Assembly (NCBI GenBank): GCA_015180985.1 | Contig: CP054185.1 | Location: 496,001 to 560,000 of the forward strand | Direction of reading: 5' to 3' | From: Flammeovirgaceae bacterium | GTDB lineage: Bacteria > Bacteroidota > Bacteroidia > Cytophagales > Cyclobacteriaceae | DNA: 64,000 bases | Shown: positions 26,170 through 31,319 of the stretch, piece by piece | Layout: each line of letters opens with the position of its first letter | Position numbering within the stretch: the first letter of the stretch is position 1 | Program-made: the position numbers and the translations under genes | Notes under the pieces: generated by a model | Databases searched by the model: none | Seen by the model: only the letters and a program-made list of their open reading frames with translations | What the model was told of the DNA's origin: nothing

Positions 26170-28071
26170 TTAAAACTTATAACGGACGAACGCCTCCATT
26201 GCTTCGTAGTCGGCAAGGCCAAGTTTGTTGTAGGCGGCAGCCGTGGCATGATTCCGGTCTTCAGCACGCACCCAAAACTCGCGCTGGTCCGTACCCGGAA
26301 ACAAGGCGCTGTCTTTTTGCGATTGATGTTTGAAAATGGCTTTGCGTTTGCGCAACAATTCATCGGGGCTCAGCGGTACGGCCATTTCAATCTGGTCAAT
26401 ATCCCACTCCTGCCAGGCGCCCCGGTACAGCCACACATAGCACTGCTTCATCCAGGTTTTTTTCTTTAATCGTTCAATGGCTCTATAAATAGCCGCTAAG
26501 CAAACGCGGTGGGTGCCGTGCGGATCGGAGAGATCGCCTGCCGCATAAATCTGGTGTGGTTTTATTTTTTCCAGTAAGTCCACAATAATGCTGATGTCTT
26601 CTTCGCCCAGTGGCTTCTTCTTTACCTTACCGGTTTCATAAAACGGCATGTCCAGAAAGTGGATGTTGCTTTCAGGAATGCCCACATATCGACATGCGGC
26701 TTTGGCTTCACCCCTGCGGATGAGTCCTTTGATTTGCATTACTTCCGGGCTGTCAACCTGTGCGGGTTTCTTTTTCTTTAAGGTTGCGGTTATCTGTTTC
26801 AGCAGTTTTTCGCTGGCCGATTTGTTCAGTTTAAATGATTCACTGAAATCGTTTACAAAATCTGCAAAGCGGATCACATCATCATCGAACACGGCAATAT
26901 TGCCCGATGTCTGGTAAGCTACGTGCACCTCATGCCCCTGATCAACCAGCCGGATAAACGTACCGCCCATCGAAATCACATCGTCATCAGGATGGGGCGA
27001 GAAAATAACCACACGCTTGGGGAAGGGTTTGGCCCGTTCAGGACGGTGCGTGTCATCGGCATTGGGCTTGCCACCCGGCCAGCCCGTGATGGTGTGCTGC
27101 AGTTCGTTGAATATTTTAATGTTTACCTGGTAGGCCGAGCCGTACTCTGTTATGATGTCGCCCATGCCGTGCTCGGTGTAATCGTTGTTGGTAAGTTTGA
27201 GCACCGGCTTATTTACTTTTTGACTAAGCCACACCACAGCTTTGCGAACAAGTTTATCATTCCACTTCTCCACCTCATCCAGCAGCCAGGGTGTTTTGAT
27301 TTTGGTGAGTTCGGAGGACGAGGCCTCATCCAGCACCACCAGTGCATTCGGGTGGTATTGCAAAAACGATGAAGGGTTTTGATCGGTAACCGGCCCTTCT
27401 ACGGCTTTCTGGATAATGGACGCTTTGCCTTCGCCCCAGGCCATCAGAATAATGCGTTTGGCTTTCAGGATGGTACCCACGCCCATGGTAATGGCTTTGC
27501 GAGGAACATTTTCTTCGCCAAAGAAATCGCTGGCCGCATCCATGCGAGTAACATGGTCGAGGGTAATGAGGCGGGTAAACGATTTTTCGGTAGAGCCGGG
27601 CTCGTTAAAACCAATGTGGCCGGTGCGGCCAATGCCGAGGATCTGAACATCAATGCCGCCCAAATCCTGGATTTTCTTTTCATAGCTCCTGCAAAATGCG
27701 GCCACCTTTTCTTTTGGCACAGTGCCATCCGGAATGTGAATATTCTTTGCCGGTATGTCGATGTGATCGAACAGGTACTCGCGCATAAACCGTACATAGC
27801 TTTGCAGCGAATCCGGGTGCATGGGGTAGTACTCATCCAGGTTAAAGGTGTACACGTTTTTAAAACTGAGGCCCTTCTTTTTGTGAAGCATCACCAACTC
27901 ATCGTACACGCGTGTTGGTGTTGAGCCGGTGGCCAGGCCAAGTACGCACGGCTTCTTTTCGCGCTGGCGCGATTTGATTAGCGCAGCAATTTCACCGGCC
28001 ACGAATACGGAGGCTTCTTCGGAAGATGAAAAAATTTTTACAGGAATCTTTTCAGGGTTATATGAAATCAT
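26170..28071 (-). CDS. nagB: NagB-like glucosamine-6-phosphate deaminase fused to a PIG-L/LmbE deacetylase domain
   Basis: The 633-residue two-domain protein begins with a NagB domain of about 270 residues: LGLATGSTPTRVYDELV, FNLDEYYPM and GIGRTGHIGFNEPGS. A linker leads to a PIG-L/LmbE deacetylase domain with FSPHPDDDVISMGGTF near 385 (PHPDD zinc motif) and DPHGTHRVC. NagB converts GlcN-6-P to Fru-6-P. The second domain could remove an N-acetyl group first, so one chain might do both steps; this is inference. It lies 3 bases after murQ in an amino-sugar recycling operon. Confidence 0.92.
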   Translation of the reverse strand: MISYNPEKIPVKIFSSSEEASVFVAGEIAALIKSRQREKKPCVLGLATGSTPTRVYDELVMLHKKKGLSFKNVYTFNLDEYYPMHPDSLQSYVRFMREYLFDHIDIPAKNIHIPDGTVPKEKVAAFCRSYEKKIQDLGGIDVQILGIGRTGHIGFNEPGSTEKSFTRLITLDHVTRMDAASDFFGEENVPRKAITMGVGTILKAKRIILMAWGEGKASIIQKAVEGPVTDQNPSSFLQYHPNALVVLDEASSSELTKIKTPWLLDEVEKWNDKLVRKAVVWLSQKVNKPVLKLTNNDYTEHGMGDIITEYGSAYQVNIKIFNELQHTITGWPGGKPNADDTHRPERAKPFPKRVVIFSPHPDDDVISMGGTFIRLVDQGHEVHVAYQTSGNIAVFDDDVIRFADFVNDFSESFKLNKSASEKLLKQITATLKKKKPAQVDSPEVMQIKGLIRRGEAKAACRYVGIPESNIHFLDMPFYETGKVKKKPLGEEDISIIVDLLEKIKPHQIYAAGDLSDPHGTHRVCLAAIYRAIERLKKKTWMKQCYVWLYRGAWQEWDIDQIEMAVPLSPDELLRKRKAIFKHQSQKDSALFPGTDQREFWVRAEDRNHATAAAYNKLGLADYEAMEAFVRYKF

Positions 28072-28074
28072 AAA

Positions 28075-28893
28075 CTAGCGCGTTGCAGCCTGAATGGCTT
28101 TTCGAACGGAACCAAATTTATTTAATAATACTGAAGCTTTAGTCTCATCAATCCCCAACTCTTCCATAATCATCTTTATACCGCGGCCAATCAGCTTGTT
28201 GTTGGTGAGTTGCATGTCAACCATTTTGTTGCCTTTTACCCGGCCCAGTTTGACCATTGCGGTTGTGCTGATCATATTGAGCACCAGCTTTTGTGCGGTG
28301 CCGGCCTTCATGCGGGTACTGCCCGTAACAAACTCAGGCCCAACGATCACCTCAATCGGGTAATCGGCAAAGCGGGCCACCTCGCTTTTCGGGTTGCAGG
28401 TAATACAGGCAGTTGTGATTTTGTTTTTTTTTGCATCGCGTAGCCCGCCCACCACATAAGGCGTGCGGCCCGAAGCGGCAATGCCGATAAGCACATCTTT
28501 TTTATTGATGCTGTACTTCTTCAAATCCTTCCAGGCTTGCCTCGGATCATCTTCGGCATGTTCTACGGCTTTGCGGATGGCTTTATCGCCACCGGCAATC
28601 AACCCGATTACACGGCCGTGCGGCATGCCGTAGGTGGGCGGTATCTCACTCGCATCCACAATACCCAGCCGGCCGCTCGTGCCCGCACCGATATAAAACA
28701 ACCGCCCGCCTGCTTTCATCTTCCGTACAATAACGACAACCAGTTTTTCAATTTTCGGAATGACCCTTTCAATGGCCAGCGGAACAGTTTTATCTTCTTT
28801 ATTTATATTTTTCAGTAATTCCCGGATGCTCATCCGCTCGAGCCGGTCGTAGTAGGAAGACGATTCCGTAATACTCGTATTCTTGCGGGGCAT
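28075..28893 (-). CDS. murQ: MurQ, N-acetylmuramic acid 6-phosphate etherase
   Basis: The 272-residue SIS-fold enzyme cleaves the lactyl ether of MurNAc-6-P to give GlcNAc-6-P in peptidoglycan recycling. Motifs are GGRLFYIGAGTSGRLGIVDASE near 62, GLIAGGDKAIRKAVEHAEDD near 97, IGIAASGRTPYVVGGL near 135 and GSTRMKAGTAQKLVLNM near 190. It is a little short of the usual 300 residues, trimmed at the C-terminus. It shares one base with the preceding kinase gene and is 3 bases from nagB. Confidence 0.95.
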   Translation of the reverse strand: MPRKNTSITESSSYYDRLERMSIRELLKNINKEDKTVPLAIERVIPKIEKLVVVIVRKMKAGGRLFYIGAGTSGRLGIVDASEIPPTYGMPHGRVIGLIAGGDKAIRKAVEHAEDDPRQAWKDLKKYSINKKDVLIGIAASGRTPYVVGGLRDAKKNKITTACITCNPKSEVARFADYPIEVIVGPEFVTGSTRMKAGTAQKLVLNMISTTAMVKLGRVKGNKMVDMQLTNNKLIGRGIKMIMEELGIDETKASVLLNKFGSVRKAIQAATR

Positions 28894-29741
28894 CAGCTGG
28901 TAACTTTGGTTTGATGGTACAACGTTAACCCGGCAATCGGACTTTCCAGAATATTTTTTACGGTAATTCCTTTATCGGTTGCTGCCTGGCGCAGCACATC
29001 GCTGAAGTAAAAAGCCACCGAGCCCACAAAATGAACTTTTAATTCCGGGGCACGATCATATTTCAGTACGTTTTTATCAAAGAATTCGCTGAAACCATCA
29101 TACACCAGTTTGTAGCAATAGGGCTCTTTAATATGTTGAAAGATAAAGTGGGAAAAACTACCCAGAAACCGGCTGGGCATATCCTGGCTGTACACCCGGT
29201 TGAGAATCTCATCGCGGTCCATCGGAAAGCGTTTTTTGAACTGGTCCCAGAGTTTAGCGGGCAAATCTTTTCGCAGGTAATCGCCCAGAATGCGTTTCCC
29301 CATCCAGGCGCCCGAACCCTCATCGCCCAGCACATACCCAAGCGAGGTTACGTTCTCTACAATTTTTTTTCCATCGTAGTAGCACGAGTTGGCACCCGTA
29401 CCAAGAATGCAGGCTATGCCTTCTTCGCGTCCGCACAGGGCGCGGGCAGCCGCTTCCAGGTCGTGCCAGATTTCGATGTACGCATTGGCAAAATACCGTT
29501 GCAGCACGTTGCGGATCAGTTGCCGGTTCCGGTCAGACGAGCACCCTGTGCCATAATAATAGATCTCGTTAATGGTGTGTTTAATCTGCGGCAGCACTAC
29601 CTCGCGTATTTCGGTTTCAAACTGGTCGATGGGCTGGTAATACGGGTTATACCCGATGGACTGCGCCTGTTCAATGGTACCGTTGGTGCCGATGATGCGC
29701 CAATCGGTTTTTGAGGCTCCGCTGTCAGCTATCAGAATCAT
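28893..29741 (-). CDS. N-acetylglucosamine kinase-like protein (BadF/BadG ATPase family)
   Basis: The 282-residue ASKHA-fold protein starts MILIADSGASKTDWRIIG (phosphate 1) and has ACILGTGANSCYYDGK (phosphate 2), LGDEGSGAWMGKR and HFVGSVAFYF (adenosine site). Its neighbours murQ and nagB suggest phosphorylation of GlcNAc or a related amino sugar from the wall. The ATG at 29741 is used because an in-frame start at 29789 would read through the REP palindrome and add residues that do not belong to the fold. It is first in the operon. Confidence 0.87.
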   Translation of the reverse strand: MILIADSGASKTDWRIIGTNGTIEQAQSIGYNPYYQPIDQFETEIREVVLPQIKHTINEIYYYGTGCSSDRNRQLIRNVLQRYFANAYIEIWHDLEAAARALCGREEGIACILGTGANSCYYDGKKIVENVTSLGYVLGDEGSGAWMGKRILGDYLRKDLPAKLWDQFKKRFPMDRDEILNRVYSQDMPSRFLGSFSHFIFQHIKEPYCYKLVYDGFSEFFDKNVLKYDRAPELKVHFVGSVAFYFSDVLRQAATDKGITVKNILESPIAGLTLYHQTKVTS

Positions 29742-29750
29742 GCTTTTATC

Positions 29751-29783
29751 AGTCGTCCTACGACTTGAAGTCGTAGGACGACT
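29751..29783. repeat. REP palindrome at the 3' side of the transposase gene
   Basis: AGTCGTCCTACGACTT (29751-29766) and AAGTCGTAGGACGACT (29768-29783) are perfect 16-bp inverted arms around a single G. The last eight codons and the stop of the transposase gene lie inside it. A relative occurs at 30342-30374 on the other side of that gene. Confidence 0.92.
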
Positions 29784-30315
29784 CATCAAAAATTTTAACT
29801 GTATAACTCAATGAATAAAATTGCTCAGGATTATCCGGAATATCAAGTAACTGATATGCGAGACTGGAGTTCACCAACCCGTTACGCTTGAAGTAATAGT
29901 CGTTAAATGAAGAATAATCCCATTTCTCCATTTTATCGACCAACCCTGCTCTAATCGGATTCTGGTGTATGTAATGAAAGCAAGCTGTACCATAGGCAGG
30001 TTCATCCACCAACTTAAATTTACTGTGTTGTTGAAACAAACTGCCCACCCGGCCCTCCTGTATGTTTATAGCGCGAGTATATGAACTCAGCATAACTCTA
30101 AAATCATTCGTAAAATAATCGGGTCTAAAATTCTCACTTGTATAGAAAAGGAAATGAAAATGATCTGGCATCAGGCAATAGGCCACAAAATCACCATGTT
30201 TCAAAAAACAGGATTTTGCTTTAGCGAGGAAGAAGAAATAGTTCTTCTCTTTAAAGAAAATCGGCTGCCTGTTATTGCCCCTGTTAAAGATATGATATAA
30301 CTGCAACGGAATCAT
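29758..30315 (-). CDS. REP-associated tyrosine transposase (RAYT, Y1/IS200-like)
   Basis: The 185-residue HUH single-strand nuclease has LYHIFNRGNNRQPIFF at the start and YCLMPDHFHFL, with the His-x-His pair at 52 and 54. YIHQNPIRAGLV carries the candidate catalytic tyrosine at 116. These fit the TnpA_REP/RAYT family, which acts on REP hairpins rather than moving its own IS ends. REP palindromes of the same family flank it at 29751-29783 and 30342-30374. It splits the recycling operon from the cytochrome b5-like gene. Confidence 0.92.
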   Translation of the reverse strand: MIPLQLYHIFNRGNNRQPIFFKEKNYFFFLAKAKSCFLKHGDFVAYCLMPDHFHFLFYTSENFRPDYFTNDFRVMLSSYTRAINIQEGRVGSLFQQHSKFKLVDEPAYGTACFHYIHQNPIRAGLVDKMEKWDYSSFNDYYFKRNGLVNSSLAYQLLDIPDNPEQFYSLSYTVKIFDESSYDFKS

Positions 30316-30341
30316 CTACCTGTTAATCTTTCTGTGTTTTC

Positions 30342-30374
30342 AGTCGTCTTACGAGTTATAGTCGCAGGACGACT
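30342..30374. repeat. REP palindrome (imperfect) at the 5' side of the transposase gene
   Basis: The 33-base element begins AGTCGTCTTACGA and ends TCGCAGGACGACT. It has the same outer AGTCGTC/GACGACT ends and length as the perfect REP at 29751-29783, with mismatches in the stem. It also covers the 3' end of the cytochrome b5-like gene. Confidence 0.88.
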
Positions 30375-30612
30375 CTAATCTTCCAATAACCCTAAACTTA
30401 TCAAACACTTTCTCCGTATGCGGTGCATCTTTCAGCTCGTCCGTCAGGTCCTGCCCCGCCCAATGTTCGTAGTGCTTACCCGTTTTCCAGAGGCGTGAGT
30501 GAGTAACCTCATAGATCAATCCCTTGTAGGCAACCCACACTTCGGGTTTATCCTGGCCGTTGCGGAGCGCGAGTTGCGCCCTGGTGTACGCTGGATAGGA
30601 GTGCTCCATCAC
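30349..30612 (-). CDS. Small cytochrome b5-like heme/steroid-binding domain protein
   Basis: The 87-residue protein has YTRAQLALRNGQDKPEVWVA, then YKGLIYEVTHSRLWKTG and HYEHWAGQDLTDEL, the pattern of short soluble cytochrome b5-like heme-binding proteins. Conserved histidines lie in THSRLW and KHYEHWAG. The partner is unknown. The last residues (SSCDYNS) and the stop are encoded by a REP palindrome, so the original C-terminus may have been altered. Its start overlaps the RDD gene end by 4 bases. Confidence 0.8.
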   Translation of the reverse strand: MMEHSYPAYTRAQLALRNGQDKPEVWVAYKGLIYEVTHSRLWKTGKHYEHWAGQDLTDELKDAPHTEKVFDKFRVIGRLESSCDYNS

Positions 30613-31319
30613 CGCGAAGTAATATGGCCGTAGTCTTTCACAATGGTGTACAGAAATTTCACGGGCGGCATATCGGTTTGAATACCGAGCAGCGATTTTA
30701 TTTTTTCGGTTACCGCCAACACCGGGCGATCATTGCCCGTGGTACGGTTTAATTCCAGCGCCTGTTGGATAAGTTCGATATCCTGATCCTTCAACTGTGT
30801 TACCTGGTGAAAAACAGGCACATAGGTTTCTTCGGCCAGGGTAAACACGTCACGGGCTGTTACTTCGCGTTGCTTTACCAGTTTAACTACGGCTGTGCCT
30901 GCGGCTATATCACCCAACCGCTGACCTTTACCGTTGATGGCAATGGTGAGCATGGCTATGGCCCCCGACATAAAGTCAACTTCAACAATGCGGATCAGCC
31001 ACCGGATGATGTAGTTGCCGATGGTGGGCGGTGTGCCGTCCAGCCGCACCACTTTAATGCCCATTTGTTTTTTACCCGGACTCTGACCGTCCATAAAAAT
31101 TTCGAACAACACATGATAGAGAAAAACAGGGATTGCAAACAGCGCAATAATTAAGATGCCTGATACATTACCTGCCGAACTTAAAATAAATGCAAGCAAT
31201 ATGAAGTAGGCAATAATAATAGCCAAGTCAATCAAGTACGCAAAAATGCGGTCGCCCAGGCTGGCAGCCGGGTATTGGATAATTACATTCTGGGTTGTTC
31301 GTACAGAAACGGTTTGCAT
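30609..31319 (-). CDS. RDD family membrane protein
   Basis: The 236-residue protein has an RDD domain: PAASLGDRIFAYLIDLAIII near 18, FEIFMDGQSPGKKQMGIKVV near 82 and GQRLGDIAAGTAVV near 130. Three to four membrane segments are followed by a cytoplasmic tail of about 90 residues with no known domain. RDD proteins are often next to SpoIIM/MoxR/DUF58 clusters, and such a cluster lies on the opposite strand here, starting at 32.7 kb. Function is unknown. Confidence 0.88.
   Translation of the reverse strand: MQTVSVRTTQNVIIQYPAASLGDRIFAYLIDLAIIIAYFILLAFILSSAGNVSGILIIALFAIPVFLYHVLFEIFMDGQSPGKKQMGIKVVRLDGTPPTIGNYIIRWLIRIVEVDFMSGAIAMLTIAINGKGQRLGDIAAGTAVVKLVKQREVTARDVFTLAEETYVPVFHQVTQLKDQDIELIQQALELNRTTGNDRPVLAVTEKIKSLLGIQTDMPPVKFLYTIVKDYGHITSR

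Follow-up and report, generated by a model that had tools for sequence, protein, structure and literature searches.

A single-copy RAYT gene and its small set of 33-nucleotide palindromes in a Bacteroidota genome

The locus

The stretch of DNA analyzed here (the window) is 64,000 nucleotides long and corresponds to bases 496001-560000 of the 3.38-Mb single-contig genome of a Flammeovirgaceae bacterium, referred to below as G000. It contains, on the minus strand, a gene for a RAYT (TnpA_REP-like) HUH-Y1 protein of 185 amino acids (29758-30315), in which H52, H54 and Y115 are present, the last within a YIHQNP motif. At the 3' end of this gene lies a perfect 33-nt palindrome, P (29751-29783), made up of two 16-nt arms and one central nucleotide. 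Upstream of the gene is an imperfect relative that is 85% identical to P (30342-30374). The description of a HUH-type RAYT gene between related palindromes, made in an earlier sequence-only reading of this DNA, therefore holds.

Both palindromes overlap coding sequence. The RAYT stop codon falls inside P, so that the last seven residues of the protein (SSYDFKS) are encoded by the palindrome. The imperfect palindrome sits at the 3' end of a cytochrome b5-like gene of 87 amino acids (30349-30612, minus strand) and contains its last codons and stop (ESSCDYNS, then stop); the alignment with the homologue in G011, a relative treated below, covers residues 1-79 only. An RDD-family membrane protein gene (30609-31319, minus strand) is next in the row. 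Beyond the opposite end of the RAYT gene comes a BadF/NagK-like kinase gene (28893-29741, minus strand), the family matches of which are weak and below cut-offs, adjoined by the N-acetylmuramic acid 6-phosphate etherase (MurQ) gene (28075-28893, minus strand). The row at 26170-29741, encoding a PRK02122-type glucosamine-6-phosphate deaminase-like protein with a PIG-L domain, MurQ and the NagK-like kinase, is by the names of its members one of amino-sugar recycling genes.

Folded as single-stranded DNA, P reaches -16.8 kcal/mol (z -8.5) and its imperfect relative -7.5 kcal/mol (z -3.5), and none of 200 shuffles was as good in either case; with 10-nt flanks included, three of 200 shuffles equaled the imperfect palindrome. 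Matches to the P half-site with up to three mismatches number four in the window against 0.17 expected, a count that none of 100 shuffles reached.

The RAYT protein

In profile searches, the protein matches Pfam Y1_Tnp at 27.0 bits (cut-off 23). Its match to the NCBIfam model REP_Tyr_transpos, at 54.7 bits, is under the model cut-off of 80, as are those of all seven relatives scored. Histidine pairs of HUH enzymes hold a metal, and on an alignment of 76 relatives the pair is conserved here (H52 in 76/76, H54 in 75/76) together with the catalytic tyrosine, Y115, in 76/76; all three are also invariant in a 44-sequence alignment. The catalytic site is thus intact. The two histidines had been named correctly from the letters alone, and the tyrosine, given as Y116, was off by one. 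The HUH motif reads DHFH in G000 and most commonly NHFH in the relatives (69/76), residue 51 being Asp in G000 versus Asn in 73 of the 76. YIHQNP is found in 73/76, and F94 is kept in the same number.

An AlphaFold2 model built from 44 sequences has a mean pLDDT of 93.4, with values below 50 for residues 177-185, nearly all of which are palindrome-encoded. Among PDB structures the model is closest to 4ER8, in which the E. coli RAYT is bound to a REP hairpin (E 1e-7, query-normalized TM 0.62), ahead of the IS608 and ISDra2 transposases; among the matches listed, IS200-type transposases have TM values of 0.37-0.45. By sequence, 4ER8 is again the first match (E 0.011). The assignment of the gene as a RAYT is borne out by this nearest solved fold.

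Comparison with the orthologue in the related genome G010 gives dN 0.15 and dS 1.43 (saturated), hence a dN/dS of about 0.11, and the neighboring kinase gene gives dN 0.03 and dS 0.93. The RAYT gene is therefore evolving faster than its neighbor, yet under purifying selection. G000 has only one other Y1 transposase match, at 2892558-2892902 (L019, 89.6 bits); by eye, it adjoins a putative type I restriction-modification M gene.

Copies of P in the genome

Further copies of the palindrome had been anticipated and do exist: P with up to three mismatches occurs at 11 places in the 3.38 Mb of G000, the flanking two included, against none for a reversed-pattern control. Two are at the RAYT gene, one is by nuoH/nuoI, two surround an Mrr gene, one is at infB, one together with a half copy (at 1053404) surrounds a small membrane protein gene, two surround an OmpA-domain gene, and one is at queA. 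Gene names at the P sites of the genomes compared (rocD, queA, infB, LemA, nuoH/nuoI, hslV, ribonucleotide reductase, S9 peptidase, amine oxidase, zinc protease, Calx and the small membrane protein) were assigned by eye from translations. Because the repeat set is this small, each copy can be traced by orthology.

All 11 places adjoin or overlap the 3' end of a gene. Across G000 and G010, an ORF stop lies within 10 bp of 16 of the 18 copies tested, compared with 30% of random intergenic 33-mers; only ORFs of at least 90 codons were counted, and both misses sit at the 87-codon cytochrome b5 gene. A wider count, covering 61 palindromes from 12 genomes, gave 32. One reading frame of P yields SSYDFKS followed by a stop, and several genes end in this way: the RAYT gene in G000, and the cytochrome b5, methyltransferase and small membrane protein genes in G010 (the last with SSYDFES). 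By eye, the flanks of the G000 copies share no common motif. Matches of P to known RNA families were two, far below gathering scores (E about 4), and a scan for intrinsic terminators listed three, none of them at P.

The stem of P is kept through compensatory changes across five genomes. Among 23 palindromes (17 distinct) from G000, G010, G002, G005 and G001, a set that omits half copies, the G010 nuoH/nuoI copy and all G011 remnants, 97.3% of cells are paired, and 6 of the 15 stem pairs have changed on both sides; none of 500 shuffles was as high, and slid controls gave 0-1 pairs. Three truncated copies (L017:2405-2437, L119:2414-2434 and L148:3158-3190) retain approximately the same half, of 21-23 nt, and are broken near the middle of P. 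This shared break could be a processing point, with the L148 copy perhaps just degenerate.

With up to two mismatches, P is present in 5 of the 17 genomes of the genus, and the RAYT locus is found in G010, G001 and G002 as well, so the suggestion of a REP family specific to G000 has to be abandoned. The designation of the palindromes as REPs stands in part. They flank the RAYT gene and recur in the genome, but the letters GTAG, which do occur inside P of G000, do not form a foot; lacking the GT[AG]G foot, these are atypical REPs.

History of the locus in the genus

The kinase gene, present in 16 of the 17 genus genomes, served as the anchor for finding empty sites. Between it and the cytochrome b5 gene, an intact RAYT gene is found in G000 and G010, with one match per genome, at the same locus; the G010 gene, too, has palindromes of one family at its flanks. 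In G001 and G002 the gap holds a truncated or gutted RAYT gene and one P; the open remnant in G001 retains the HUH and Tyr motifs and, to judge from these, may still be alive. The gap measures 40-80 bp and is without P in G003, G005, G009, G011, G012 and G014, and it is occupied by an unrelated ORF of 275-281 codons in G006, G007, G008, G015 and G016 (L065, L067, L070, L072 and L074), which by eye encodes a membrane prenyltransferase. For G013, no b5 gene was found on the stretch examined beside the kinase gene. Since relatives have an empty site with neither RAYT gene nor palindrome, the RAYT gene did enter the gene row, as the sequence-only reading had supposed.

A FastTree phylogeny based on three genes, with 10 of the 17 genomes included, gives ((G000,G011),G010) with local support of 1.0. 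It follows that G011, the sister of G000, has most simply lost its RAYT gene, and sequence comparison indicates that the gene is inherited vertically within this sub-clade.

Integrity of P with and without RAYT

These three species amount to a natural experiment: G000 and G010 have an intact RAYT gene and mostly tidy copies of P, and G011 has no RAYT gene and worn copies. Twelve site rows were computed. At seven sites P is retained in G000 as well as in G010, and its edit distances from the consensus there are 2, 0, 4, 0, 0, 2 and 0 in G000, 6, 3, 0, 3, 3, 2 and 0 in G010, and 11, 14, 14, 5, 6, 17 and 7 in G011, which is worst at 7/7. Two of the seven are at the RAYT locus, where a single G011 stretch serves for both, leaving five that are independent of that deletion. 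Five rows were left out: Mrr/amine oxidase and small gene/protease, where G010 lacks P; infB, for which there is no stretch from G010; S9, where G010 has half a P; and the methyltransferase site, which is degraded in G000. Loss of RAYT in G011 coincides with degradation of the shared palindromes.

The correspondence has its exceptions. At the methyltransferase site, P is perfect in G010 (edit distance 0), at distance 11 in G000 despite the intact RAYT gene, and at 14 in G011; at the infB site of G011 the hairpin is still mostly paired. G001 and G002, in which the RAYT gene is truncated or gutted, retain an intact P at the kinase site. Two further P sites, by eye at the ribonucleotide reductase and hslV genes, are intact in both G002 and G005, one of them with a compensatory change, at a DNA divergence of about 15-17%. 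G005 has no RAYT gene at the kinase locus and its other RAYT-like genes carry different palindromes; G002 has a second RAYT, also with other palindromes. Intact copies beside a broken or absent RAYT gene, together with the degraded site in G000, mean that host selection may hold some P sites or that the loss of RAYT there may be recent.

Hairpins at related RAYT loci

Related loci were taken from named, mostly Bacteroidota records, the best 80 of 148 being analyzed, and all counts in this paragraph refer to those 80. Hairpins are 40 times denser near RAYT genes than further away, with 75 in the 39.5 kb within 250 bp of the gene and 13 in the 275.6 kb beyond 1 kb. At least one lies within 250 bp in 44 loci and both sides have one in 19, of which 16 have hairpins at least 70% alike; at the threshold used, no hairpin was found within 250 bp in the other 36. 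The commonest length near the gene is 33 nt (26/75). A GT[AG]G motif within 6 nt of the foot was found for 1 of the 75, where chance would give about 4.6% each. Palindrome sequences vary between RAYT relatives, as they should if a palindrome changes in step with its RAYT.

In G048, G075, G081, G102 and Echinicola shivajiensis (L191), the RAYT gene itself contains a palindrome, which is in frame and immediately precedes the Y motif. The in-frame 33-nt palindromes of L182, L183, L184, L185 and L191 encode a linker of 11-13 residues ahead of the catalytic-Tyr motif. In-gene palindrome inserts are known for TnpA_REP subclass 2.4 and some of 2.8, according to the available text of the source (PMC6006769).

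Proposed mechanism and alternatives

We give a probability of roughly three in four to the view that this is a REPtron in which a single-copy, vertically inherited RAYT gene is accompanied by cognate 33-nt palindromes that it copies or restores. The RAYT protein would bind the single-stranded hairpin of P and nick the DNA at or beside it via Y115, forming a 5'-phosphotyrosine, with the metal held by H52 and H54, and would rejoin the strands. Over evolutionary time this would place or restore copies of P at a small number of sites right at stop codons, and the RAYT gene itself would no longer jump. The observations on G011 suggest that it is RAYT activity that maintains P.

A different account would make P a host-selected 3' hairpin, protecting mRNA ends or terminating transcription, with RAYT a bystander that uses the same sequence. 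Speaking for it are the position of 16 of the 18 G000 and G010 copies at ORF stops, against 30% of random intergenic sequences, the compensatory changes in the stem and the conservation of P, at about 15-17% DNA divergence, between G002 and G005, neither of which has an intact cognate RAYT gene. The terminator scan, however, does not list P, and in G002 and G005 a hairpin with a T-run already precedes P at the ribonucleotide reductase gene. Also against it, P lies further from the consensus in G011 at all seven shared sites, and at the best 80 of 148 loci the density of palindromes near RAYT genes is 40 times that found more than 1 kb away. We regard this account as unlikely, while giving it some weight.

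The arrangement of the copies raises another alternative, in which pairs of P are the ends of gene cassettes and the one gene enclosed is inserted or removed by RAYT or by recombination between the two palindromes. Four pairs in G000, one including the half copy, each enclose a single gene, and none of 200,000 random placements yielded four pairs within 1.5 kb; removal of the RAYT pair and the half copy, however, leaves only two pairs, which 50 of 200,000 placements match. One of the genes, encoding an Mrr-type (type IV) restriction endonuclease (L015:2297-3214, or G000 690796-691713, minus strand), lies between two perfect copies of P and is accessory, being found in 20 of 245 family genomes (E ≤ 1e-20, G000 included). 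In keeping with cassettes, G011 is missing both this gene and the small membrane protein gene and has one degraded P between the same neighbors; in G015, too, the corresponding junction lacks Mrr, and in G005 and G007 the junction of the small gene lacks that gene. Set against this, G010 has both genes with P on one side only. Among the five closest Mrr homologues elsewhere, a similar palindrome lies within 250 bp of just one (L302), on which ground Mrr was rejected as a regular companion of P; another (L305) has an unlike, A+T-rich hairpin within that distance. No cassette was seen at two places.

Outside G000, a P site in G010 (L119:1050-4114, on contig C169) holds a gene for a DUF4143 ATPase and an AbiEi/AbiEii pair, each flanked by direct repeats, 105 and 83 bp long, of the neighboring peptidase gene's 3' end; the 105-bp repeat starts inside P. 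A search by eye within 3 kb of other RAYT genes, at the best 80 of 148 loci, gave one clear bracketed case, an M20 peptidase-like gene (L193, the same locus as L148 of G033). In G081, of another genus, palindromes of P form lie around a DUF2807 gene (L156:1475-2585) and around a two-gene stretch with an amidohydrolase (L149:1620-5348). These examples, too, could be read as cassettes. The simplest history for Mrr and the small gene, however, is that P and gene were ancestral, that a second P arose in the ancestor of G000 and G011, and that the sequence between the copies was then lost in G011. Recombination between two 33-bp repeats suffices for such a deletion, and RAYT action is unneeded. We consider the cassette alternative improbable, and we are equally doubtful of a joint reading in which low-copy P sites would be excisable cassette borders, with RAYT acting in trans and one P left behind, and the protein would belong to an unprinted Bacteroidota RAYT subclass, characterized by NHFH, no W before Q96, YIHQNP and footless 33-nt palindromes that are sometimes in frame before the catalytic Tyr.

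Least probable of all is an ordinary IS200-like insertion sequence moving as a P-transposase-P unit, which would account for palindromes placed at both ends like element ends, for the empty sites without P in relatives and for the fold family common to IS608 and ISDra2, but not for a gene that occurs once in each of G000 and G010, at a shared locus and with a dN/dS of about 0.11, a protein closer to 4ER8 than to IS transposases, and the fact that the only other Y1 match in G000 (at 2892558) is a more ordinary Y1_Tnp, at 89.6 bits, lying elsewhere.

A REPtron this small offers a way into the host role of RAYT proteins. With about ten sites, a knockout or in vitro test would be far easier to read than with hundreds. 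Should the bracketing of accessory genes prove causal, RAYT-palindrome systems would have a part in the precise acquisition and loss of genes.

Comparison with known systems

The locus is a REPtron of the Bacteroidota kind, that is, a RAYT (TnpA_REP) gene with palindromes of about 33 nt that lack the GTAG foot, and it comes from a bacterial group that has been little studied. In the portions of the open-licence literature available, we found no report of a site-by-site comparison of palindromes with a RAYT-less sister, and none of single genes between such palindrome pairs. The broad features of RAYT/TnpA_REP systems are present: the catalytic residues, flanking palindromes of one family with further extragenic copies, and a single gene, vertically inherited and not self-mobile (from G000, G010 and the tree). 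Canonical REPs carry GT[AG]G at the hairpin's 5' foot, a motif that hairpins near these RAYT genes show no more often than chance. Nor are there the several near-identical copies of an IS200/IS605 element that moves as a unit, there being one copy in G000.

The E. coli TnpA_REP (4ER8) shares with the G000 protein the HUH-Y1 fold, the H-x-H pair and single Tyr, and a gene flanked by palindromes; its catalytic Tyr is likewise Y115 (PMC8266576). It differs in strictly needing GTAG, according to the available text of the same paper, and E. coli has 69-235 REPINs per genome (PMC8049555), whereas the G000 palindromes are 33 nt long, near-perfect and footless, and occupy 11 places. REPs tagged with CGTC (PMC3733652) were considered because these letters occur in P and were rejected, since the stem and tail, as far as that source describes them, do not fit.

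Closer at hand is TnpA_REP subclass 2.6 (Bertels group 5), described by Quentin et al. (2018) in the text available (PMC6006769) as mostly from Bacteroidetes, with atypical secondary structures and copies elsewhere in the genome. Like the G000 protein, its members have about 180 amino acids, YIH[QN]NP and no GT[AG]G. Their NH[LIV]H and WQ motifs, however, are replaced by NHFH in the G000 family (DHFH in G000 itself) and by strings without W, QQ in G000 and W-less in all eight commonest strings of the 76 relatives. Subclass 2.4 (group 4) allows F in the HUH motif, and the in-gene palindromes are a likeness seen in relatives of the G000 protein, but the same text prints YIxNNP and GT[AG]G feet for it, where G000 has YIHQNP and no foot. 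Judged by printed motifs rather than by subclass profile HMMs, the G000 RAYT appears to fit no printed subclass fully.

The gammaproteobacterial RAYT-REP units of Nunvar et al. (2010) differ in their abundant GT(A/G)G REPs, and homologues meeting those authors' criteria were, in the text available, from gammaproteobacteria only (PMC2817692). The likenesses are nonetheless considerable. Inverted REPs lie on both sides of the gene and orthologous position is kept; the palindromes change yet stay palindromic, and the RAYT gene evolves faster than its neighbors (PMC2817692). In gammaproteobacteria the presence of RAYT also tracks the number of REPs (PMC2817692). The kind of REPtron described here is already published, and the RAYT gene of G000 and its copies of P are a further case, one that comes with natural controls.
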